A stretch of DNA of 64,000 bases, taken from assembly GCA_003023725.1 (NCBI GenBank), contig PXYT01000014.1:1-64000 (forward strand). Direction: 5' to 3'. A program made the translations under genes and the position numbers. Below are positions 29,993 through 52,160 of this stretch, one piece after another. The notes under the pieces are model-generated. The model was not told where the DNA came from. It ran no database searches and worked only from the letters and a program-made list of their open reading frames with translations. The stretch comes from Sulfobacillus benefaciens. GTDB taxonomy: Bacteria; Bacillota; Sulfobacillia; Sulfobacillales; Sulfobacillaceae. Numbering within the stretch: the stretch's first letter is position 1; the number at the start of each line of letters is the position of its first letter.

Positions 29993-30391
29993 TCAGAAAA
30001 GCCAAATCAGGTGGGGGTGGAGAAAATATGCGATCATCACCAAGATCCGCGGCAGAGCCAACCCAGTTTGCCACTCATTCACCCTCACACACCGGGGGCA
30101 TAGCCGCGGTTCAGCGGGCGCACCGCTTGGGTGAGCCTGGGGTTCTTTGGGTATATAGGCCTTGGCCATGACGCCGTCATTTCTCACCTCCAACCGCTGA
30201 GACAATTTTTTCGCAGTTGCATGGGTAAATCCCACGTGCGGTTCCGCCCACATCACAGGGGCATGCTCACAATGATCCCAGCACTGGGTTTGACAAACCC
30301 GCACCCGCTGGGGATCCATCTGTGTCCCCAACACTTCTTGCAGTTTGTCCGGTCCATACAGATGACCAATAACATCACCGCGTACCTGCAC
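29993..30391 (-). CDS. Thioredoxin-like [2Fe-2S] ferredoxin protein of the formate dehydrogenase locus
   Basis: 132 residues from a provisional GTG start. The middle part, VRVCQTQCWDHCEHAPVMWA, matches the cysteine-bearing half of thioredoxin-like [2Fe-2S] ferredoxins, followed by a helix that closes the fold. Coding similarity appears to extend upstream of the GTG (LCFPGNSPHPRVQVRGD) without a standard start codon, so the N-terminus and one cluster cysteine may be lost or the start unusual. The C-terminus ends in a hydrophobic stretch unlike the family and may be out-of-frame read-through. It lies downstream of the formate dehydrogenase and could have been its electron acceptor. It may be degenerate. 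Confidence 0.5.
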   Translation of the reverse strand: MQVRGDVIGHLYGPDKLQEVLGTQMDPQRVRVCQTQCWDHCEHAPVMWAEPHVGFTHATAKKLSQRLEVRNDGVMAKAYIPKEPQAHPSGAPAEPRLCPRCVRVNEWQTGLALPRILVMIAYFLHPHLIWLF

Positions 30392-30448
30392 CCGTGGATG
30401 GGGGCTGTTTCCAGGAAAACAAAGTATAAAAGACGCTACCCCATTCCC

Positions 30449-30662
30449 TTACGCATAAGGAATGACCATCACCCGCGACAATTCGCCAATGATTTCCGGA
30501 TCCAGATAATGAAAATGCTCTGGACACTCCACAGCTTTAGCAAGGCGTTTGACAGCCCGTTTGATAAACACGCCATAACGCCGGCAGCAGATGCTGCCGG
30601 ACTTTGGGAATGGTTTCGAGCACCTGTTCAATTTTCGGAACCGTCGATTCTTGGTGATCCAT
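30449..30662 (-). pseudogene. Frameshifted small gene directly after fdh
   Basis: An ATG follows the fdh stop with no gap (TGAATG). The first frame reads MDHQESTVPKIEQVLETIPK then VRQHLLPALWRVYQTG and stops at 30537. Shifting one base near 30560 restores KRLAKAVECPEHFHYLDPEI and IGELSRVMVIPYA, ending at 30449. Both halves look coding, so a single-base indel has probably split a gene of about 70 codons. The family is not recognised. Coupling to fdh suggests an accessory role. Confidence 0.55.
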
Positions 30663-32642
30663 TCACGCCCTTTCATCCCCGGACGAAGACGCCTTGAGGG
30701 CATATTGTTCCGCAGCCTCTGCCGAACCGGAAGGCAGCGAATCCACCGCCACTCGCTCGATGCGGACAGCACAAGCCTTGAACTCTTCGGTTCCGGAGAT
30801 GGGATCCCACGCGTCAATCGTCAGCTTATTGGTAGCCGCCAAATCTGGAAAGTGAAACGACAGGAATACCGTGCCGGGAGGAACCGTACGGGTCTTGAAG
30901 GCAAGCACCCTGATTTGTCCGCGCCGTGAAATGAGATGGACAACATCCCCATCGTCAATGCCTAATTTGTCCGCATCCTCTGGGTGAATCTCCATCCACT
31001 CCCCGCGGTGAGGATGATGGTACACTTCCGACTGCACCCCGGTATTGTAAAAGGCAAGCCGCCGCCCTGTGGTCAAGGTGAAAGGAAATTCCGGCGTGGG
31101 TGTTTCCACTGGCGGTTGCCATTCCACCCGCGTAAAGGGAGCCAAAGGAGCCACCTTATCTTCCCACAACCGCGTGTGCAGCGTCCGGGTTCCGGGATGA
31201 TTCTCATCCGGGCACGGCCATTGAATCCCGTGTTCTTTGGTCAGGCGCTCATAGGTCATACCCCGAAAATTCGGTGCCAGGTGCCGCATCTCATCAAAAA
31301 CCTGCTCGGCACTCAAATCGGGCCAGTCATAACCCATCGCCCGGGCCAGATGGGTCACGATCCACAAGTCATCCGCGGCCCCGTCCGGGGCCACGCGGGC
31401 GGCTCTCACTCGTTGTACCCGCCGTTCGCTATTGGTGTAAGTGCCCTCGCTCTCCGCAAAGGAGACTCGGGCGGGGAACACTACGTCAGCCATTTCGGCA
31501 GTTGCCGTCAGAAAAATGTCTTGCACCACCAGCATATCGAGTTGGCTCAATAACTTGCGAATATGCGTGCTGTTCGCATCGGAATCCACAGGATTTTCCC
31601 CGATTACGTATAATCCTCGCAGTTTGCCCTGTTCCATGGCCTCAAACATCCGGGTCTGATTCAGTCCCGGGGTTTCGGAAATCGGCACGCCCCAGGCCTC
31701 TTCGAAGCGGCGGCGCTCGTCTGGCCGGCGAATGCTTTGGAATCCCGGCAGCCTATCCGGCAACGCTCCCATGTCACCGCCTCCCTGCACGTTATTCTGT
31801 CCGCGCAAGGGATTGAGTCCCGAGCCTTCCCGGCCCACGTGCCCTGTCAGTAAAGCCAGATTAATGAGAGAAAACACGTTATCCGTAGCATTATGATGCT
31901 CGGTAATTCCTAATGTCCAGGCAATGATGGCCTTCTCGGCCTGCGCATAGGCCCTGGCTACCCGCTCAATTTCTTCCGGGGCAATCCCGGTGATGAGAGA
32001 CGCACGCTCCGGAGTCCATGCGGCGAGCTGAGCAGCATACTCTTCAAATCCGCTTGTCGCACGTTTCACGAATAATTGATCCCACAGCCCGCCCCGAATA
32101 ATCACGTGAGCCATGGCGTTGGCCAAGGCAATATCCGACCCAATGGCGATGGGCAGATGAATATGAGCCCTTTGCGCCGTCAGAGTGCGTCTGGGATCCA
32201 CAACCACCAGCGTTGCCCCGTTATGAACCCCTTTCATCACATGGTGGAAAAAAATCGGATGTGTCTCCGCCGCATTGGATCCCACCATCATGATGAAATT
32301 GGTGTGATGAAATTCGTCATAAGCGTTTGTCCCCGCCCCGCTGCCGAATACCGTCGCGAGACCCGCGACCGAAGGGGCATGTCACGTTCTGTTGCAGGAA
32401 TCCACGTTATTGGTGCCAAAAACCACCCGGGAAAATTTTGATGCCAAATAGTTCAACTCGTTTGTGGACTTGGAACAGCTGAACACTCCCAGCCCCGTCT
32501 CGCCAGAACGGGATTTGATACGTTGAAATCCCCGTGCCGCCACACCAAAGGCTTCGTCCCAGGTAGCGGGTTCAAGCCGTCCGTTCTTTCTAACCAGCGG
32601 AGTAGTGAGTCGTATTGATGAACGTTGAACGACACTGGCCAT
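30663..32642 (-). CDS. fdhF: Molybdopterin formate dehydrogenase with in-frame UGA (selenocysteine)
   Basis: 659 residues if UGA at 32382-32384 is read as selenocysteine (residue 87). Before it, RLTTPLVRKNGRLEPATWDE and FSRVVFGTNNVDSCNRT; after it, HAPSVAGLATVFGSGAGTNA then YDEFHHTNFIMMVGSNAAET. This is the invariant formate dehydrogenase core, where the residue binding molybdenum is Sec or Cys. The remaining domains are complete, including RVSFAESEGTYTNSERRVQR and the C-terminal cofactor-binding barrel. An E. coli-like SECIS hairpin follows the UGA. The start is the ATG at 32642 after AAAGGAGG. The usual N-terminal [4Fe-4S] domain (about 55 residues) is missing. It would oxidise formate to CO2 in the cytoplasm, if active. 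No sel genes are in the window. Confidence 0.85.
32353..32384 (-). promoter_or_regulatory. Candidate bacterial SECIS element
   Basis: Twelve bases after the UGA, GTCGCG and CGCGAC form a perfect 6-bp stem (32364-32369 with 32353-32358) capped by GGTCT. E. coli fdhF has GGUC in its SelB-binding loop at the same distance from UGA. The position, loop and coding frame agree, so selenocysteine insertion is more likely than a simple nonsense mutation. Confidence 0.75.
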
Positions 32643-32874
32643 GAATATCACTGCCTCCTTTAAGTTCAGCAAAGCGAGGTAGCCAGCTGCCGCCGATCCA
32701 ACTGCGTGTGAAGCACCACGCACGGGGTCTGCCATGTGCCTTGGCCGGCATTTCATTTGAAGGCTGGCCTTTGCTTGTGACAGCCTGCCCGCGAATCGCA
32801 GGGCTAATTTTGGTTCCGAGAAAGACCGGTTGAGCGGCAGCCGGGCCACACAGTGCAATTAGACCGCTGTCTAA
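32643..32874. other. Leader upstream of fdh, possible lost N-terminal domain
   Basis: The fdh frame stays open upstream to 32858 but does not encode the C-x2-C-x3-C iron-sulfur motif expected there. A second frame (about 32815-32700) is also open without recognisable motifs. Either the iron-sulfur domain was deleted or the gene never had one. Confidence 0.45.
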
Positions 32875-33996
32875 CTAATTGACGGAAAGTTGTTCTAACC
32901 GCAGCAAACTTAAGGCTTGAAACGCCATCCAGGCTTCGGCCACGCATTCGGTATTGCGAAAATCGTGGTGTAAGAGATTTTCCGCTTGATGGACGCGGTA
33001 AATCACCGTATTCTTATGAACGTGAAGAACGCGGGCGGCCTGGTCCACCGATTGATGATGAAAGAGATATTCCCGCAATGTCACTAAAATGTCCTGATGC
33101 CCCGGGTCCAGAATCGGTTGCAGCACATCATGAACCAACTGCACCAACGCTTCTCGGGGCAAATTCACCAAAAATCCCATCGCATGCTGATCAAACAAAC
33201 GGTTTAAAAACCCTTGATGATGTTCCTGGACGGCGTAATCCATAATTTTTCGGGCTCGGGCCAGAGCTGATGGCAACTGGTCGAACTGATTGCACGGCGT
33301 CCAATAACTTGCGACGGGAAACGAAGGATAAGCATGTTCCCATTCCCCCACCAGGTGAGTCAAAAACTTCATGGGATCAGGGACTTCACTGACAGGAAGA
33401 ATAGCCAGTAACCCATTGGGGATCCATCCCACAAAAGGAAAGTCGTCCCGGTAACCCCATATCCTTCCGAGGAAAAACCGCCGTAGCTGATGCATATGCT
33501 GAAAAGGAAGATGATGAGTCATGGAAATGGCAAAAATCCCCCAAGGGGGAGTGGCCAGTCCGCATAAATCCAATAAGCGGACATTTTCTTCGGTTAACCC
33601 TAACTGCATGACACGGTGAATTTTCTCACTGCGCCGCTCCGCCTCGGTCTCGGCCCACCTTTGGACCATATTCAACGCCATGGCCAATTCCGCGGTAAAG
33701 ATGCGCAAATAACTGTCTTGAGGATTCACACTGCACGACGAAAAAATCGTGGCCACAGGGGTTCCGTAAAAAGTTAACGGAAACGAATAGCGGATCGTGG
33801 GAGCTGCCCCTTTTCCTTCATAAAAGACAGATCCTTGGCAATCAACCAGCTGCAGCCAATTGGCGTGAAAAACATCGGACCACTCATCCACAACGCGCCG
33901 CAAAGTTGCCAGAGCCGCCACACCCTCATCTTTCGCGTCCATGACCACGTCCATGATTCGCCGGAAAGGTGATTCCTGCTGCTTTTGGGAAATCAT
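32875..33996 (-). CDS. PucR-family transcriptional regulator
   Basis: 373 residues. The C-terminal PucR helix-turn-helix is clear: TLREYLFHHQSVDQAARVLH followed by VHKNTVIYRVHQAENLL. The N-terminal about 280 residues include a GAF-like or GGDEF-related sensor that I cannot classify closely. The ATG at 33994-33996 follows AAAGGAG; a longer GTG-type start at 34020 has no site. Such regulators respond to small metabolites and usually control adjacent catabolic genes. Its place between fdh and the aquaporin/formaldehyde dehydrogenase genes, all minus strand, suggests it controls C1 oxidation. Repeated sequences upstream (34090-34150) may be its sites. Confidence 0.85.
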   Translation of the reverse strand: MISQKQQESPFRRIMDVVMDAKDEGVAALATLRRVVDEWSDVFHANWLQLVDCQGSVFYEGKGAAPTIRYSFPLTFYGTPVATIFSSCSVNPQDSYLRIFTAELAMALNMVQRWAETEAERRSEKIHRVMQLGLTEENVRLLDLCGLATPPWGIFAISMTHHLPFQHMHQLRRFFLGRIWGYRDDFPFVGWIPNGLLAILPVSEVPDPMKFLTHLVGEWEHAYPSFPVASYWTPCNQFDQLPSALARARKIMDYAVQEHHQGFLNRLFDQHAMGFLVNLPREALVQLVHDVLQPILDPGHQDILVTLREYLFHHQSVDQAARVLHVHKNTVIYRVHQAENLLHHDFRNTECVAEAWMAFQALSLLRLEQLSVN

Positions 33997-34089
33997 GCGG
34001 ATTCTCCTTTGCGCCCACACCCATCGTCCCGTGTTGAGTCAGCACTCACATTCAAGAAACGATTTGTCCGCCAAAGCAATTCGGCAAGT

Positions 34090-34150
34090 TGTTACGGTTC
34101 GCGTATTGTGTTGTGTTGTTGTAGACGTTACAGTTGGTAACGTTACAGTT
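34090..34150. repeat. Spaced direct repeats upstream of the PucR gene
   Basis: CGTTACAGTT occurs at 34126-34135 and 34141-34150 (15-base period), and a related TGTTACGGTT at 34090-34099. They lie 95-155 bases upstream of the pucR-type start and could be regulator half-sites. Confidence 0.45.
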
Positions 34151-34290
34151 AATATCATATTACATTCGCGCTATTTCGGATCATCGAAATTCTCGGGACT
34201 CAGAACCGTCAATCTCTGTCCAGGGCGCAAAAATCTTCCTACCTCTCTCCCTTCGTCATATTCGGGTCCGGACGAAAAGGGCCCATGCTC

Positions 34291-35091
34291 TTATGCTTGT
34301 TTTCTCGTAACCTCGCTTTGACGCTTCAGTGTAGTCCTCGCTTCCGCAATCAAAGGATAGACCCAAGCCGCCGCGGCTGCCCCCAACAATTGGGCGATGA
34401 TGTAAACCACCACGATGTGCCACAGATTGGGGCCGCCCAAAACCCAGTCAGCAAAAATGGGACCTATGGTCCGGGCGGGGTTAATAGCGGCGCCGGATAC
34501 GTTTCCCAGGAGAATAATCAGTCCAGCTATGTTCAGTCCGATGATTAATCCCGCCCAATGAGGCGGAGCATGCTTGTTGACAGCCAGTCCCAAAACACCC
34601 AATACCAAACCAAAGGTGCCGATGGCCTCGGCGGCACCCGCCTGCCACAGGGGTATGCCCGGAAATGGGCCAGGAGCCCCAAGCCCTCCAATAGCCCAGG
34701 CACTATGCCCGTAGACCAAGGCTATAGCAAAGGCCCCTAATGTCGCTCCAATCAACTGGGCGACCCAATAGGCCACGGCTTCCATAGGCGAAATCAGGCG
34801 CTGAATTAGTATAGACAAGGTCACGGCCGGGTTGATATGCGCCCCGCTCACATGGCCAAAAATATAGACCATGGTCATAATAGCAAAAGCAAAAGCCAGT
34901 CCTATGGCCAGCCAATCCGCGCTGCCGCCCAAAGCCCCAATGCCGATATCACTCTTGGTGTAACGGGGTGCTCCGTGATTCAAAATCAAGGTCATGGCTG
35001 CCGTTCCCGCTCCGACAAATACCAGGAAAAAGGTCCCGATGCCTTCTGCCCACATTTTTTGTCCCAGGGTGAAGTGTTCGTCCATATCCAT
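34291..35091 (-). CDS. Aquaporin/aquaglyceroporin (MIP family)
   Basis: 266 residues with six spans and two half-helices. Both NPA signatures are intact: SGAHINPAVT (about residue 87) and GAAINPART (about 204). N-terminal GIGTFFLVFVGAGTAAM is typical of the family. GAGGAG precedes the ATG. MIP channels pass water, glycerol or small neutral solutes. Beside formaldehyde and formate genes, passage of a small neutral C1 compound is conceivable but unproven. The protein is somewhat long owing to an extracellular loop between spans 1 and 2 (HGAPRYTKSDIGIGALGGSA). Confidence 0.93.
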   Translation of the reverse strand: MDMDEHFTLGQKMWAEGIGTFFLVFVGAGTAAMTLILNHGAPRYTKSDIGIGALGGSADWLAIGLAFAFAIMTMVYIFGHVSGAHINPAVTLSILIQRLISPMEAVAYWVAQLIGATLGAFAIALVYGHSAWAIGGLGAPGPFPGIPLWQAGAAEAIGTFGLVLGVLGLAVNKHAPPHWAGLIIGLNIAGLIILLGNVSGAAINPARTIGPIFADWVLGGPNLWHIVVVYIIAQLLGAAAAAWVYPLIAEARTTLKRQSEVTRKQA

Positions 35092-35172
35092 ACACTCCTC
35101 GTATTAGTTAATGGCCCACGGCCCCTGCTATGAGACCCTGCCGCGCTTGCGGCATAGATAGCCTACCCGAAA

Positions 35173-35319
35173 TCAAAATAAAAATCCTCCAACACCTGAC
35201 AGCGCAATGAAATGGCGAATCAGCTCAGCGCTTAAGACGAGGACAAGAAAAATGGTGACAAGGGTCACTGGCAAACGCCAGCGGCCCTTGATGCGTGGTG
35301 ACTGTTCTTGCTCAGTCGT
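35173..35319 (-). CDS. Small single-span membrane protein with non-standard start
   Basis: Immediately after the TAA of the formaldehyde dehydrogenase, the same frame continues for 50 codons: TEQEQSPRIKGRWRLPVTLV then TIFLVLVLSAELIRHFIALS and GVGGFLF. This is a basic N-terminus followed by one clear transmembrane helix. No ATG, GTG or TTG begins it; the only near-start is ACG at 35317-35319, and there is no ribosome site. It could be a coupled gene starting at ACG, a stop-codon read-through extension that anchors the dehydrogenase, or a gene whose ATG mutated to ACG. Coding character is good; expression is uncertain. Confidence 0.45.
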   Translation of the reverse strand, partial: TTEQEQSPRIKGRWRLPVTLVTIFLVLVLSAELIRHFIALSGVGGFLF

Positions 35320-35322
35320 ATG

Positions 35323-36456
35323 TTAAGTATTCGGATGAATCAAGACTTTGGTGTAGCCTTCGATCCGTTTGTCGAATTTCTCGTACGCAGCGGGCGCTTC
35401 ATCAATTCGGATTTCGTGGGAAACGACAAAGCTGGGCTTGGCCCGTTCGGCAATAATCATATCGCGCAGATACCGGTTGTAGTGCTTGACGTTGCACTGC
35501 CCGGTTCCCATGCTCAATCCCTTCTCGAAGAATTTCCCGACGGGAAATATTAAATGACCTTCCTTGGCATGCGGATCCACACCACCCGGGTCCGAAGGCA
35601 CATAGAGTCCCGGCACGCCTAATCCCCCGGTGGCACGAACAACGCGGACCATCGCGTTTAACACGGTGTTGGGCACTTCATGCCCCTTTTCTACGGCCTG
35701 ATAACCCACCGCATCCACGGCGCGGTCCACCATGTTTCCGTGGCGCATCTGCAGAATCTGATCGACGGCGTCGCCCTGGTCGAAATTCACCGGTATCGCG
35801 CCGATTGACCGCGCTTTGTCCAAGCGCTCGGGCACATGATCCACGGCGTACACTTCCGAAGCCCCGCGCAAGATCGCACTGTAAGCTGCCATCAATCCGA
35901 CCGGTCCGGCTCCAAACACCGCGATCGATTCACCCGGTTGAAATCCCGACAGGCTCACGCCATGCCATCCGGTGGGAAAAATATCCGCCAGCAGCGCAAA
36001 ATCCGCTTCGTGTTCAGTTCCTGCAGGCAACCGCAAGGCATTGAAATCCGCCCAGGGCACCCGCAGGTATTGAGCCTGGCCGCCCGGGTATGGTCCCATC
36101 GCCACATAGCCGTAGGCGCCGCCGGCAAATCCCGGGTTCACCTCGGTGCAAAATGCCGAATATCCCGACTCACAATTCCGGCAGTGCCCGCATGCCACGT
36201 TAAACGGCATAACAACGCGGTCGCCTACTTTTAACTTGCTGACTCCGGGCCCGACTTCGGTCACAATTCCCATGTTTTCGTGACCAAATACAATACCGGG
36301 CTGGGCTGCCGTCCGACCCTCATACATATGCAAATCGGATCCACAGATACAGCTCGTGGTAATTTTGACGATGGCATCATTGGGATGAAGAATTTTGGGA
36401 TCCTCGACATCCCGAACGGCCACCTTAAACGGTTCCACATAAACAACTGCTTTCAT
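35323..36456 (-). CDS. Zinc-dependent formaldehyde/alcohol dehydrogenase (glutathione-independent type)
   Basis: 377 residues of the zinc MDR family. SCICGSDLHMYEG supplies the catalytic cysteine, FGHENMGIV the zinc histidine and glutamate, CGHCRNCESGYSAFC the four structural-zinc cysteines, and VFGAGPVGLMAAYSAI the NAD-binding turn. The insertion GFAGGAYGYVAMGPYPGGQA and QYLRVPWADFNALRLP are characteristic of the glutathione-independent formaldehyde dehydrogenase group, which oxidises formaldehyde (often by dismutation) with tightly bound NAD. A GGGGG-type ribosome site precedes the ATG. With formate dehydrogenase nearby it makes a formaldehyde-to-CO2 route plausible. Confidence 0.88.
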   Translation of the reverse strand: MKAVVYVEPFKVAVRDVEDPKILHPNDAIVKITTSCICGSDLHMYEGRTAAQPGIVFGHENMGIVTEVGPGVSKLKVGDRVVMPFNVACGHCRNCESGYSAFCTEVNPGFAGGAYGYVAMGPYPGGQAQYLRVPWADFNALRLPAGTEHEADFALLADIFPTGWHGVSLSGFQPGESIAVFGAGPVGLMAAYSAILRGASEVYAVDHVPERLDKARSIGAIPVNFDQGDAVDQILQMRHGNMVDRAVDAVGYQAVEKGHEVPNTVLNAMVRVVRATGGLGVPGLYVPSDPGGVDPHAKEGHLIFPVGKFFEKGLSMGTGQCNVKHYNRYLRDMIIAERAKPSFVVSHEIRIDEAPAAYEKFDKRIEGYTKVLIHPNT

Positions 36457-37174: not shown

Positions 37175-38125
37175 GTGGCTGTCCATATCGTTTTCAACCT
37201 GTGCCAAGTCCTGGTCGTATTGCTATTGTCACCTTTTTTCCGCGGCCTTTTGACCCGTATCGAAGAGCGAATGCAAGCCAAGCGGGGTCCCAGCGTCTGG
37301 CAACCATATTATGATTTGTGGAAACTTTTTCATAAAGACGAAGTAGTATCCACCCAATCAACCTGGATATTTCGCTTCGCTCCCTATATTTATTTCGTAT
37401 CCCCGCTTCTGGTAACGCTATTGATTCCCGTGCTGACGGACTATCCTCTTTTCATGGCATTCATGGGAGATATGGTGGCTGCCGGATTTATCCTGTCCAT
37501 CGGAGCCTTTTTTCTCTCACTGGCCGCTATGGATGCCGGCACCGTATACGGATTTATGGGCTCCAGCCGCACCCGCATGGTCAGCTCATTGGTGGAACCC
37601 ATTTTCATCATTGTCTTTTTTTCCGTGTCCTTTGCCGCCAATTCCACCATCCCCTACATCGTGCAAGCCCATTGGGTCTCCACACCGGCGGCGTTTTATT
37701 CTCCCACCCATCTTTTAATCGTGGCGGCGTTCATCATGATTATTTTGGCAGAGACGGGAAGAATTCCCGTCGATAACCCTGCCGGACATTTTGAACTGGC
37801 CATGATTGACGAAGCCAGAACCCTGGAATTCTCGGGACCGTCACTGGCACTGGTTAAATGGGGCGGATACACGAAATTTATGGTTTTAAGCATCGTCTTG
37901 CTGAACGTGTTGGTCACGCCGTGGGGATTAGCCTCCCATCTCAACGGGATCGATCTATGCGCGGCCATAGTGCGGGTAGGTCTCAAGCTCACAGGATTTG
38001 TGGTGCTTGTTGCCATCGTCGAGACGTCTTTGGCCAAATTGCGGCTATTTCGGATTCCGGATTTTCTGGGAGTGGCTTTTGTCACGGCCGTTATCGCTAT
38101 GATTGTGCAACCGTTCCATTTCTAA
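37175..38125 (+). CDS. hyfC: Hydrogenase-4-like subunit C (NuoH-type membrane subunit)
   Basis: 316 residues with eight hydrophobic spans. The NuoH/HyfC marks are present: RIEERMQAKRGPSVWQPYYD followed by LWKLFHKDE, then ILAETGRIPVDNPAGHFELA and the acidic IDEARTLEFSG loop that contacts the quinone or electron-transfer module. The start is a GTG after a GGGGGG stretch. First gene of six in the same direction. In complex I and group 4 hydrogenases this subunit anchors the peripheral arm. It retains the charged residues needed for coupling. Confidence 0.9.
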   Translation: MAVHIVFNLCQVLVVLLLSPFFRGLLTRIEERMQAKRGPSVWQPYYDLWKLFHKDEVVSTQSTWIFRFAPYIYFVSPLLVTLLIPVLTDYPLFMAFMGDMVAAGFILSIGAFFLSLAAMDAGTVYGFMGSSRTRMVSSLVEPIFIIVFFSVSFAANSTIPYIVQAHWVSTPAAFYSPTHLLIVAAFIMIILAETGRIPVDNPAGHFELAMIDEARTLEFSGPSLALVKWGGYTKFMVLSIVLLNVLVTPWGLASHLNGIDLCAAIVRVGLKLTGFVVLVAIVETSLAKLRLFRIPDFLGVAFVTAVIAMIVQPFHF

Positions 38126-38158
38126 ACTTCCATTTCTCAACAAGGAAAGGGAATACTC

Positions 38159-38869
38159 ATGAACCAGCTTATGGTGGTGAATCATCTGCTCGTTAACATT
38201 AACAGTGTAATAGGAGCCTTGTTTTTGCTCAGCGCTGTGGTGCTCATGACCCAACGTCAGGCCCAGGCCGTGTTGAGACTGTTTGTCCGTCAGTCGATTT
38301 TGCTGGCCGTATCCGCTTTTATCCTCGGATGGCTGCATCATTCGGCAGAATTGATGATTGTCGGTCTGATCACGATTGTGGCCAAAGCCGTCCTCATCCC
38401 CCAGTTGTTAACACGCACCCTCGGACCGGATATTCGGTCCCGAAGAGAACTTGACTTTATCGTCAATACGCCAGTGTCTCTTCTGATCGCCCTGGGCATG
38501 ACCGTTTTATCGTATTTCTTTGTGGCGCCGCTTCTGAACGGCGCCAATCAGACCATTGCGGTGAACCTGCCGGTGGGACTGGATGTTCTCCTCATTGGCG
38601 TCTACACCTTGGCAGTACGCCGCGAAGCGGTCCCTCAAATGCTCGCAATGATGGCCATCGACAATGGCGCATTTTATGCCGGCATCGCGATCACCACATC
38701 GTCGGCCATCGTGGAATTGGCAGCGGGTTTGGAAGGCGTGATGGTCGTGTTGATTGCGGCTATTTTAGCCCGCACCCTGGCTCAACGTGTGGGCTCCACC
38801 GAGGTGTCGGAACTGACCCATCTCAAGGAAGGTGAAAGAATCGGCGAAAAAGAAGGTGAATCGGAATGA
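38159..38869 (+). CDS. hyfE: Hydrogenase-4-like subunit E (NuoK-related)
   Basis: 236 residues with about seven spans. The first segments and VAKAVLIPQLLTRTLGPDIR match HyfE, a subunit of hydrogenase-4 whose C-terminal part resembles NuoK. The C-terminal tail (HLKEGERIGEKEGESE) is charged and cytoplasmic. AAGGAAAGG precedes the ATG. The stop overlaps the next ATG by four bases. It probably lines the ion path between subunits C and F. Confidence 0.85.
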   Translation: MNQLMVVNHLLVNINSVIGALFLLSAVVLMTQRQAQAVLRLFVRQSILLAVSAFILGWLHHSAELMIVGLITIVAKAVLIPQLLTRTLGPDIRSRRELDFIVNTPVSLLIALGMTVLSYFFVAPLLNGANQTIAVNLPVGLDVLLIGVYTLAVRREAVPQMLAMMAIDNGAFYAGIAITTSSAIVELAAGLEGVMVVLIAAILARTLAQRVGSTEVSELTHLKEGERIGEKEGESE

Positions 38870-40299
38870 TCATTATCGCCATTCCTCTCGTACCCACTTT
38901 GGCGGCCTTAATTGCTCTCTTGACTCCCCGCATTCAGCTCATTCGGCTGACGACTGTATTGGGAACATTCGCGACGCTGGTTCTGAGCATGATCGTGGCC
39001 CATGAGATCACTCAGCGCATTCGGCTCACCGTTTTGCCCCACTGGATCGGAGTCGGCGGCCTGAGTTCTTTGATTCTCGTCCTGCAGGGTTTTGTCGCCC
39101 TAACCGCGGCACTGTACTCATGGGGATATATGAAACGGGTGACTTCACTTCACCCGCAACGCCAGCAGCAATTTTATGTCAATCTCAATTTGTTCCTGGC
39201 ATCTTTGTTCATGGTCCCGATTTTTCTTCAACCTGCTTTAACCTGGGTGGCCGTCGAACTGACCACCGTCCTTTCGGTGTTCTTGGTAGGGTTTGACAAC
39301 ACACCCCGGGCTCTCGAAGCCGCCTGGAAATATGCGGTGATCACGATCATGGGCGCCACCGTGGCGGTTCTGGGAATCTTTCTGCTGCTTTGGGGTCTGT
39401 TGACCCTGCATGTGTCGATTCAAACCTGGGACACCCTCAAGACGGCCGCCCCCCACATGCCGGTCGTGCAACTGAAATTGGCGTTTGTGCTCATTTTTAT
39501 CGGCTTTGGCACCAAGGTGGGCATCGTGCCAATGCACACCTGGCTGCCGGATGCTCACTCCCAGGCTCCCACTCCGGTCTGTGCCCTTTTGTCCGGAGTG
39601 GAGGTCAGCACGATTCTGTACGTGATTATGCGGCTTTGGCCGGTATTTGAACAAATCCCAGGAGGATTTGCCCAAAACTGGGCGTTGGTCTTCGGGCTGA
39701 TTTCCGTGGGCACCGCCGCCTTCCTCATGATTCAGGTGCGCGATTTTAAACGCTTGTTTGCTTTTTCCACGGTGGAGCAAATGGGGATCCTTTTGGTGGG
39801 ATTAGGTTTGGGGCCAGCCGGCCACTATGCCATGATGTATCAGTTGTTGACGCATGCCATCACCAAATCACTGGTGTTTTACAGTGCCGGCGCGGTATTC
39901 TTGGCCACATCCACGCTGGACATCGCATCGGTAAAAGGGGTGATAAGGAGCTCTCCCGTGGCGGGAACAACTTTGCTCTTTAGCGGATTGGCCATCGCGG
40001 GCGCTCCGCCTTTTGCCGTCTTTCTGAGTGAGTTTGCCCTTTTCCGCGCCTCGCTGATGTCCCGGCATATTATCGTACTGGTCCTGTTGCTGGTGTTTGT
40101 GACCTTGGCGTTCTTCGGCATTCTGCGCCATCTCAACCACATGATCTTCGGCCCGCCGTCCCACCCGCGGATCACCCTGCCCCGTTCGGTGATTTGGACT
40201 CTGGTCATCGGCTGGATTCCGGTTCTGGTGTTGGGCGTGTATCTTCCGGCTTCGGTTCACCACTTGCTCACTCTCACCACGTTGGCCTTAAGGAGGTAA
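38866..40299 (+). CDS. hyfF: Hydrogenase-4-like subunit F (antiporter-type, NuoN/M-like)
   Basis: 477 residues with about 14 spans. The proton-translocating core has GTKVGIVPMHTWLPDAHSQA then PTPVCALLSG, and the second lysine segment at MYQLLTHAITKSLVFYSAGA. FKRLFAFSTVEQMGILLVGL is the standard helix-7/8 region. Both halves of the inverted repeat are present, so ion pumping is expected. Coupled to hyfE by ATGA overlap. Confidence 0.9.
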   Translation: MIIIAIPLVPTLAALIALLTPRIQLIRLTTVLGTFATLVLSMIVAHEITQRIRLTVLPHWIGVGGLSSLILVLQGFVALTAALYSWGYMKRVTSLHPQRQQQFYVNLNLFLASLFMVPIFLQPALTWVAVELTTVLSVFLVGFDNTPRALEAAWKYAVITIMGATVAVLGIFLLLWGLLTLHVSIQTWDTLKTAAPHMPVVQLKLAFVLIFIGFGTKVGIVPMHTWLPDAHSQAPTPVCALLSGVEVSTILYVIMRLWPVFEQIPGGFAQNWALVFGLISVGTAAFLMIQVRDFKRLFAFSTVEQMGILLVGLGLGPAGHYAMMYQLLTHAITKSLVFYSAGAVFLATSTLDIASVKGVIRSSPVAGTTLLFSGLAIAGAPPFAVFLSEFALFRASLMSRHIIVLVLLLVFVTLAFFGILRHLNHMIFGPPSHPRITLPRSVIWTLVIGWIPVLVLGVYLPASVHHLLTLTTLALRR

Positions 40300-40307
40300 G
40301 GGCGTTG

Positions 40308-41867
40308 ATGACAGAAAAAACGTTGGAGCACATCCTCGAGCAACATGAAGAAATGGCCGTGACAGTCGAACCGAACTGGATCCGCATTGCGGCTCCAGCG
40401 TCCCGGCTCCCGGAATTGGCCTCACAATTAGCCCCTGAGTGGGCCTTTGCGGGCATTGTGCCCGAAAACGATCCCAAAACCCAAAGTCTTAGGTTACTTT
40501 ATGTGTTCTATGCGCGAAACGGCCCGTGGGTGGGCATTGAAGTCAGAAATCATGACCAAAGCATCCCCACCATCAGTAACATTCTGTTTGCCGCGGACTG
40601 GCAGGAACGGGAGATGGAGGACTTATTCGATGTGCAGTTCGAAGGCCATCCCCAGTTGGGTGACTTCGTACTGCATGACAGTCACTGGCCGGAAGGCACG
40701 GCTCCCATGAAACGGCATTCCTGGGAGATCCGGCAAAAAACCACCGAATCCCGGAATTTGAGCACACCCCGAATTGTTGAGGCCTCAGGTTCCTTTGTCA
40801 TGCCCATTGGACCCATTTTTTCCGGCACGCAGGAAGCGATTCAATTTGGACTCGAAACCGTGGGCGAAGAAATTGTTTTTGCCCACATCCGGCCATTTTA
40901 CAAATACCGTGCCGTGGAAAAGCTATTGGAAGGGCAAACTCCCTCTGTGGCACTCTTAATCGCCGAACGCATTGACGGGCTCACGGCCTTTTCCCACAGT
41001 CTCGCTATGGCCCAGGCATTCGAGACACTGGCCGGTGCTCCCGTTCCGCCGAGAGTCCGTCTTTTGCGGGTATTTTGGGCAGAAATTGAACGGATACGCT
41101 CTCATATGCAGGTGTTGGCGGGCATTTTGGAATCGACCGGGCTATCCGTTCCGGCAAACTTGATCCAGGCTCTTGAAGAAGACTTGCTGCAACTATCCGG
41201 GGCACTGACGGGTCATCGTTATTTATTCGGACTCGTCAGACCCGGAGGACTCAGTCGGGACTGGAGCGATACCGAGATTGAAAACATTGTCGACCGGCTC
41301 GGAACAATACTGGAACCCTCACAGCGGATCTTGGACGCATTAACCTTCGACAACAGTTTTTTGGACCGCTTGGAGGCTGTGGGCACTCTTAGCCTTGAGT
41401 CCGCCAGTACGCATTGTTTAGTGGGACCGGTAGCACGCGCTTCGGGGATAAACCGGGATTTAAGAGTCTGGCAGCCATATCAGGCTTACGATCAGATCAC
41501 CTTTGATGTGCCGGTGCAAGCGGAAGGCGACGGCTATGCCCGCTTTCGCCAACTGTGCCAGGAGATTGTCCAGTCGTACCGTATCGTTCAACAAATACCC
41601 CCCCTGCTCCCTGCTGCACTCTCCCAGACCGAAGACTTTGGGATAACCCAAGCAGGTACGGCTCTCGGATATGCCGAAAGCCCTGCGGGAGCGGTCATAT
41701 GCTGCGTGTCGGCCAATAGCCGGGGGATGGTGGAACGTTGCCGGGTGATAACTCCCGGTCTGGTTAACTGGCACGCTTTTCCCCAATCTGTCAGGCATTT
41801 TGCCTTTCAGGATTTTCCCATCATCCTGGCGACGTTTGGACTCAGCGTAGCCGATCTCGATCGCTAG
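40308..41867 (+). CDS. hyfG: NuoCD-like large subunit lacking nickel-iron ligands
   Basis: 519 residues. Residues about 1-150 are a NuoC-type domain (DWQEREMEDLFDVQFEGHPQ). The rest is the hydrogenase/NuoD large-subunit fold, with FAHIRPFYKYRAVEKLLEG and RVFWAEIERIRSHMQVL. In real [NiFe] hydrogenases two CxxC motifs bind the metal. Here the first region reads AERIDGLTAFSHS (D223, T226 for the cysteines) and the C-terminus reads FGLSVADLDR (S513, D516). All four ligands are gone, so it cannot activate H2 by the known mechanism. Such proteins occur in energy-converting hydrogenase-related (Ehr) complexes. The ATG follows AAGGAGG. Confidence 0.9.
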   Translation: MTEKTLEHILEQHEEMAVTVEPNWIRIAAPASRLPELASQLAPEWAFAGIVPENDPKTQSLRLLYVFYARNGPWVGIEVRNHDQSIPTISNILFAADWQEREMEDLFDVQFEGHPQLGDFVLHDSHWPEGTAPMKRHSWEIRQKTTESRNLSTPRIVEASGSFVMPIGPIFSGTQEAIQFGLETVGEEIVFAHIRPFYKYRAVEKLLEGQTPSVALLIAERIDGLTAFSHSLAMAQAFETLAGAPVPPRVRLLRVFWAEIERIRSHMQVLAGILESTGLSVPANLIQALEEDLLQLSGALTGHRYLFGLVRPGGLSRDWSDTEIENIVDRLGTILEPSQRILDALTFDNSFLDRLEAVGTLSLESASTHCLVGPVARASGINRDLRVWQPYQAYDQITFDVPVQAEGDGYARFRQLCQEIVQSYRIVQQIPPLLPAALSQTEDFGITQAGTALGYAESPAGAVICCVSANSRGMVERCRVITPGLVNWHAFPQSVRHFAFQDFPIILATFGLSVADLDR

Positions 41868-41937
41868 CCGGCATTGAGCTCAAGTCGTAGCCGGCAGTCA
41901 TTTTATCACCCATTTTACGTAAGGAGGAAAGTTTGCC

Positions 41938-42657
41938 ATGTTATGGTTTCGCAAGGGACTTGACCAGCCAGTCAGGACCTTAACCCCGAAAACATCTTCC
42001 ACGCTGCACGGATTGTCTCCCGGGCGCCCCGCCCCCACGCCTTCGCGCGATGCGGCGCCGGAAGACGTCTGTCCGACTCATGCGTTGAAAGAGCATGACG
42101 GCGTGATGGATGTCGATTACACACAGTGCATTCAGTGCCGCTTGTGCCGTCAACAGTCGCTCAAGAACAAAATGAATTGGGAAGAAGGATTTCATTGGGC
42201 CCAAATGACATCCACATCGCTTCCTGACGCCTTTCACCATTCGGTGCACGTAAGAGTCGTGGATGCAGGCGACTGCGGAGCCTGTCTCAATGAATTGCAC
42301 CAATTGGCCAGTCCGGTATACAGCTTGCACCGTCTGGGAATCGCGTTCACCCCGGCTCCGCGCGAAGCCGATGTGCTGGTGGTAACGGGGCCCGTAACGG
42401 TATCCATGAAAGAGACGCTGGAAGAAGCTTTTCAGTCTATGCCCACTCCTAAACGTGTCATGGCGGTAGGAACCTGTGCTCTTTCGGGTGGGATTTTTTC
42501 TTCCAGTTTTGCCGTAGCCGGTCCTGTTGACCGGGTGATTCCTGTAGATATTGCAATCCCCGGCTGTCCGCCGCCCCCCTTAGCTCTTCTCGATGGATTT
42601 CGTCTGATTATGGGCGCACGGCCGGAAAATCCCTTGGACGGGAGGGTACGGAAATGA
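41938..42657 (+). CDS. hyfI: NuoB-like small subunit fused to a ferredoxin-like N-terminus
   Basis: 239 residues. The C-terminal half is NuoB/HyfI: the proximal cluster cysteines C113 and C116 (DAGDCGACLNEL), C180 (GTCALSGG) and C210 (PGCPPPPLALLDGF) are all present, so one [4Fe-4S] cluster is retained. The N-terminal part has C45 (VCPTHAL) and C64/C67/C70 (CIQCRLC), enough for one ferredoxin-type [4Fe-4S] cluster, so a HyfA/HyfH-like function seems fused in. AAGGAGG precedes the ATG. It would carry electrons to the altered large subunit. Confidence 0.88.
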   Translation: MLWFRKGLDQPVRTLTPKTSSTLHGLSPGRPAPTPSRDAAPEDVCPTHALKEHDGVMDVDYTQCIQCRLCRQQSLKNKMNWEEGFHWAQMTSTSLPDAFHHSVHVRVVDAGDCGACLNELHQLASPVYSLHRLGIAFTPAPREADVLVVTGPVTVSMKETLEEAFQSMPTPKRVMAVGTCALSGGIFSSSFAVAGPVDRVIPVDIAIPGCPPPPLALLDGFRLIMGARPENPLDGRVRK

Positions 42658-52027: not shown

Positions 52028-52160
52028 CCGGAAGCAAAGCCAAATCATCCCAAATGGGGATGAACGGGGGAACCAGTGGTTACTGGGGCGAACCAACAGA
52101 GAGTCCTTTCCGCTCTAGCCCGTCAGCTAACCTCGTAGGCATGGAAAGACGGTAATCCGG
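52028..52160 (+). promoter_or_regulatory. c-di-AMP riboswitch (ydaO-yuaA type)
   Basis: The conserved ydaO elements appear in order: GGAAGCAAAGCC, GGGGATGAACGGGGGAACC, TTACTGGGGCGAA, and AGCCCGTCAGCTAACCTCGT followed by AGGC. The ends CCGGA (52028-52032) and TCCGG (52156-52160) close helix P1. This class normally switches genes off when c-di-AMP is high, often cell-wall or osmolyte/ion transport genes. It controls the amidohydrolase-symporter operon just downstream. Confidence 0.9.

Follow-up and report, generated by a model that had tools for sequence, protein, structure and literature searches.

A formate dehydrogenase catalytic subunit of Sulfobacillus benefaciens with a probable selenocysteine codon, a conserved SECIS hairpin, and lost partner genes

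A formate dehydrogenase (FDH) gene of Sulfobacillus benefaciens carries an in-frame UGA that, as deduced from comparative sequence analysis, is almost certainly read as selenocysteine (Sec), with a bacterial SECIS hairpin just beyond it. The gene lies within a stretch of 64,000 nucleotides (the window). Its product is very likely the catalytic portion of a cytoplasmic Sec-FDH that depends on molybdenum or tungsten. The protein is a member of a clade with a split alpha subunit, and its own partner genes have been lost; it is probably served by those of a second FDH operon, which lies elsewhere in the genome on contig C81. Among bacterial selenoprotein families, none is as widely distributed as Sec-FDH (PMC13188914), and a 2014 study in BMC Genomics (PMC4378227) reports putative Sec-FDHs beside NuoEFG-like genes in all Sulfobacillus genomes. 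Because Sec-FDH in Sulfobacillus is thus already published, the central claim for the window is an ordinary one. The published enzymes resemble the window copy in having a cytoplasmic Sec catalytic subunit and in belonging to the same genus, and the C81 operon fits their NuoEFG-like synteny; the window copy differs in having no functional genes for NuoE, NuoF, and the separate ferredoxin-like protein here called the N-piece. Neither this orphan copy nor the exact point of the split is described in the part of PMC4378227 covered here.

TABLE 1 Features at and around the FDH gene of the window
Feature	Position	Strand	Basis or remark
nuoE-like partner remnant	30187..30662	-	43-bp insertion, frameshifting indels, in-frame stops
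FDH catalytic subunit	30663..32642	-	659 residues with Sec87, without N-terminal [4Fe-4S] domain; TIGR01591 and Pfam
Terminating TGA, real stop	30663..30665	-	Next frame is the nuoE remnant
Bacterial SECIS hairpin, GUCGCG-GGUCU-CGCGAC	32353..32369	-	Covariation, codon conservation, UGA/Cys contrast; Rfam SECIS_3 below gathering score
In-frame UGA, very probably read as Sec87	32382..32384	-	Corresponds to Sec140 of E. coli FdhF; conserved in 36/36 aligned members
Shine-Dalgarno-like AAGGAGG	32654..32660	-	11 nt before ATG 32642; read directly from the sequence
PucR-type transcriptional regulator, possible regulator	32875..34020	-	Upstream, same strand; HTH_30, 54.6 bits
Zinc alcohol dehydrogenase related to glutathione-independent formaldehyde dehydrogenase	35323..36456	-	TIGR02819, 352 bits, below cutoff of 637

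A formate dehydrogenase frame with one internal UGA

The FDH frame is continuous from its ATG to its terminal TGA and contains a single internal TGA, at residue 87, in the context NNVDSCNRT-U-HAPSVAG. An earlier note on this DNA had proposed that the two open frames flanking the TGA join at the Sec/Cys position of FDHs and that automatic annotation would split the gene. Both points were borne out: the frame and its alignment with Sec140 of Escherichia coli FdhF agree with the former, and gene callers would indeed divide the enzyme into two. The note did not mention the missing [4Fe-4S] domain, the loss of the partner genes, or the earlier publication of Sec-FDH in this genus.

The catalytic residues U140, H141, and R333 of FdhF (from NC_000913) align with U87, H88, and R280 of the window FDH, and the two proteins share 40% identical residues (257/649 aligned). 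Against the profile TIGR01591 (formate dehydrogenase alpha), the window FDH scored 675 bits and passed the curated cutoff of 666 even though its alignment begins at profile position 50, with positions 1 to 49 absent. Pfam searches of the chain returned the domains Molybdopterin and Molydop_binding and did not return Molybdop_Fe4S4 (PF04879); likewise, the cluster Cys residues of FdhF have no counterparts in the alignment, and the window FDH starts approximately 54 residues later. In contrast, the chain of FdhF, an enzyme that works in formate hydrogenlyase, includes an N-terminal [4Fe-4S] domain.

A SECIS hairpin maintained by compensatory change

The stem GTCGCG/CGCGAC, closed by the loop GGTCT, begins exactly 12 bases after the internal TGA, just as the earlier note had read it. 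The description of this hairpin as E. coli-like held in part: the fdhF SECIS of E. coli K-12 (NC_000913) has a GGUCU loop at the identical distance from its UGA, but its stem contains an unpaired, bulged U (..GGU-U-GC..), whereas the stem in the window consists of six unbroken pairs. Folding of the bases after the UGA had been suggested as a check. The single-sequence fold was not better than that of shuffled sequences (z -0.54) because the region is GC-rich, and comparative tests, in which the pairing held in 36/36 relatives, were therefore applied.

Across the 36 aligned UGA homologues, all six pairs were formed in every sequence, with two-sided changes at four of the six. Helix cells were paired in 100% of cases (89.5% in shuffles), double-changed helix cells numbered 25 (3.9 in shuffles), and the covariation score was 0.438 (0.228 in shuffles); of 500 shuffles, none reached the observed helix values. 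The covariation signal was abolished when the pairing partner was shifted by one to three bases. Some compensatory pairs change amino acids jointly, as where VAGLA (GCG...GCG) stands against VVGLT (GTG...ACG) with the pair kept, and RNA pairing has constrained the protein sequence beside the FDH active site. Conservation of synonymous codons, scored over 562 codons, peaked at residues 92 to 96, which are those of the hairpin.

The UGA and Cys members of the split FDH family, which was enlarged by a genome scan that added 80 further members, form a natural control in which the hairpin is found only where a UGA must be read. The GGTCT loop was present in 85 of 87 UGA relatives versus 0 of 23 Cys relatives (all distinct sequences), and the full hairpin with this loop was present in 82/87 versus 0/23 (Fisher p 3e-19, without correction for phylogeny). 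The loci of the 23 Cys members are all titled as actinomycetes, and in them the pairing is mostly lost. All close relatives have both the UGA and the hairpin, and Cys codons are confined to homologues at a greater distance; the pattern that the earlier note had named as damaging to its reading, close relatives with a Cys codon and an unconserved hairpin, was therefore not seen. Two UGA-FDHs (L020 and L023, in genomes G024 and G026) have the loop GGGCT rather than GGTCT.

At Rfam gathering thresholds, no SECIS was called in the window. The top match was to SECIS_3 (RF01989), at 32387-32329 on the minus strand. It spanned the model from end to end, on the strand and at the site where a SECIS would be expected, but its score of 26.3 bits (E 2.6e-4) fell short of the gathering score, which is 63. 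On the comparative evidence, which we regard as decisive, the hairpin is a real bacterial SECIS.

Selenocysteine machinery

The genome of the organism (4.56 Mb in 155 contigs, 98% complete) encodes the full set of components for which a search had been proposed: selA (556 bits), selB (358 bits), selD (358 bits), and tRNA-Sec, the selC product (68.9 bits, above the gathering score, with anticodon UCA by ARAGORN). With this complete machinery, and with the UGA and hairpin conserved in close relatives, the organism very probably decodes Sec at the window FDH, in agreement with what the earlier note had supposed. Three genes in the genome call for Sec, namely, the window FDH, the C81 FDH, and selD, which contains an in-frame TGA with a hairpin behind it. 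The TGA of selD (L048, G000:C84:19770-20705) falls within TSKSG-U-GCK, and the gene is read here as one for a Sec-containing selenophosphate synthetase. Among relatives, G010 and G019 have no FDH and likewise no selA above the cutoff. A true tRNA-Sec was not found in G006, G024, G025, and G026 despite their UGA-FDH and selA, which is most simply explained by gaps in draft assemblies.

In the mechanism that we propose, SelB carrying Sec-tRNA-Sec would bind the hairpin just past the UGA, such that Sec would be inserted in place of a stop. The selenium would then ligate the active-site metal (molybdenum or tungsten), where formate would presumably be oxidized, and electrons would pass from the active site to the [4Fe-4S] domain at the C terminus of the separate ferredoxin-like N-piece, whose gene in this clade follows those for the NuoE-like and NuoF-like proteins.

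A split and permuted alpha subunit

A shared operon order of catalytic piece, NuoE-like, NuoF-like, and N-piece was observed in C81, G003, G004, G005, G011, G024, G035, G044, and others. The N-piece (285 to 314 residues) has 2Fe-2S and 4Fe-4S ferredoxin domains, and its C terminus is the very Fe4S4 domain missing from the catalytic piece (Molybdop_Fe4S4 at residues 224 to 276). Judged by this domain content, the catalytic piece and the N-piece together make up a single FdsA alpha subunit that has been permuted, with the cut just behind the Fe4S4 domain. All of the modules of the FdsABG-type NAD-dependent FDH (e.g., PDB 6tga) are also present in the complete operons of relatives: the 2Fe-2S and 4Fe-4S N-domains, NuoE, NuoF, and the Mo/W catalytic domain. 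The solved FdsA-type homologues, however, have a single alpha chain of 950 to 1,000 residues, whereas in these relatives alpha is split after Fe4S4 and the gene order is permuted. A frameshift or a wrong start as the cause of the missing Fe-S domain was considered and rejected, as relatives share the start and the length and have the domain in a separate downstream gene.

The split layout was found in 74 of the 74 loci of the wider scan with a placeable N-piece, in Firmicutes, Chloroflexi, Gemmatimonadota, Acidimicrobiia, Dormibacterota, and actinomycetes; in more distant homologues (42 to 49% identity), the alpha subunit is fused. Tentatively, these enzymes might constitute a distinct FDH class in which alpha is permanently split, with catalysis on a cluster-free Sec/Cys chain and electron transfer on another, and we are as guarded in suggesting that such a class could be common to Sulfobacillaceae, other Firmicutes, Chloroflexi, Gemmatimonadota, Acidimicrobiia, and actinomycetes. 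If it were, an orphan catalytic subunit could make use of an electron-transfer module encoded in a different operon. Among the titles listed for open-licence papers on NuoEF-linked Sec-FDH and on FDH gene fission, none concerned a split FDH alpha, and in the part of the literature covered, we found no description of a split and permuted alpha spread over many phyla or of the orphan copy.

An orphan catalytic subunit and its possible partners

What follows the window FDH is a remnant of nuoE with 70% nucleotide identity to the intact nuoE of G004. Its differences at the three codon positions are.28/.15/.45, versus.033/.027/.313 between intact copies. Genes for NuoF and the N-piece were not found within the window, and the only close matches to them in the genome are on C81, the others being distant complex I-like or other matches. 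By these signs, the nuoE of the window is a pseudogene and its nuoF and N-piece are gone. The second FDH operon, on C81, is complete: NuoE, NuoF, and the FeS N-module expected of an FdsABG-type enzyme stand beside its catalytic subunit, as they do not in the window. The C81 partners are 65 to 68% identical to those normally used by the clade of the window copy (G004).

Despite this loss, the FDH frame is, by its substitution pattern, intact and still constrained. Compared with G004, pN was 0.15 versus a pS of 0.78 (saturated), and 2 of 163 otherwise invariant residues were changed. No dN/dS ratio is given relative to G003 and G004 because synonymous sites were saturated; relative-rate tests and counts of invariant sites were used instead. 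The relative-rate tests were mostly not significant, with a significant rate excess for outgroup G008 alone, and the branch of the window FDH was 0.33 in length versus approximately 0.18 for G003 and G004; some relaxation after the loss of partners is therefore possible. Since the partners are lost and the frame is intact and constrained, we somewhat favor the view that the window FDH borrows the electron-transfer subunits of C81 in trans and would most likely work with that complete set. An orphan FDH kept intact after the decay of its partners makes the interchangeability of FDH electron-transfer modules testable.

The main rival to function with C81 partners is slow decay, by which the window FDH would be a leftover in which open frame, UGA, and SECIS persist with no working enzyme. 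We consider this rather unlikely, although nuoE is a clear pseudogene, two further partner genes are gone, the branch is longer than those of the sister copies, and a catalytic piece without the separate [4Fe-4S] domain cannot pass electrons on. Against decay, the 659 codons contain no stop other than the UGA, invariant sites are nearly all retained, pN is far below pS, and the SECIS and the ribosome-binding site are intact, whereas nuoE has many indels and several stops.

The loss of partners does demand another electron route, and the orphan might instead have been recruited to a different acceptor, such as an Ehr complex 5 kb away whose Hyf/Nuo-like genes include one with a NuoB-like product that carries a ferredoxin domain; the outcome would be either a formate:quinone system or one resembling formate hydrogenlyase. 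This appears improbable, as the genes of the complex run on the other strand and are separated from the FDH by three genes, none of them was seen to encode a Molybdop_Fe4S4 protein, and Ehr complexes are reported in every Sulfobacillus species (PMC4378227). More improbable still is a reading in which the UGA is a normal stop, or an error of sequencing, that leaves two fragments, with the hairpin there by chance or through conservation at the protein level. The hairpin does overlap the conserved VAGL coding sequence, and its single-sequence fold was not significant, but the UGA is at the same place in every close relative, the compensatory pairs described above change amino acids together (VAGLA, VVGLT), and Cys relatives that share the protein motif have no hairpin. 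At the level of sequence, this reading is already contradicted by the comparative data. Function with the C81 subunits remains the most likely reading.

Genomic neighborhood

Genes for a formaldehyde-dehydrogenase-like alcohol dehydrogenase, an aquaporin-type channel, the PucR-type regulator, and the Sec-FDH form a single-strand row at 30663-36456 on the minus strand, which is possibly a formaldehyde-to-CO2 cluster. The Ehr-type membrane complex, related to hydrogenase-4 and complex I, is encoded at 37175-42657 on the plus strand; Sulfobacillus Ehr complexes are reported to have no NiFe motifs (PMC4378227). Directly upstream of this Ehr-like operon lies a fluoride riboswitch (RF01734, 37010-37067, plus strand; 34.2 bits, gathering score 34) with a perfect 14-bp inverted repeat in its 3' part. 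A c-di-AMP riboswitch (RF00379, 62 bits) was identified at 52028-52156 on the plus strand.
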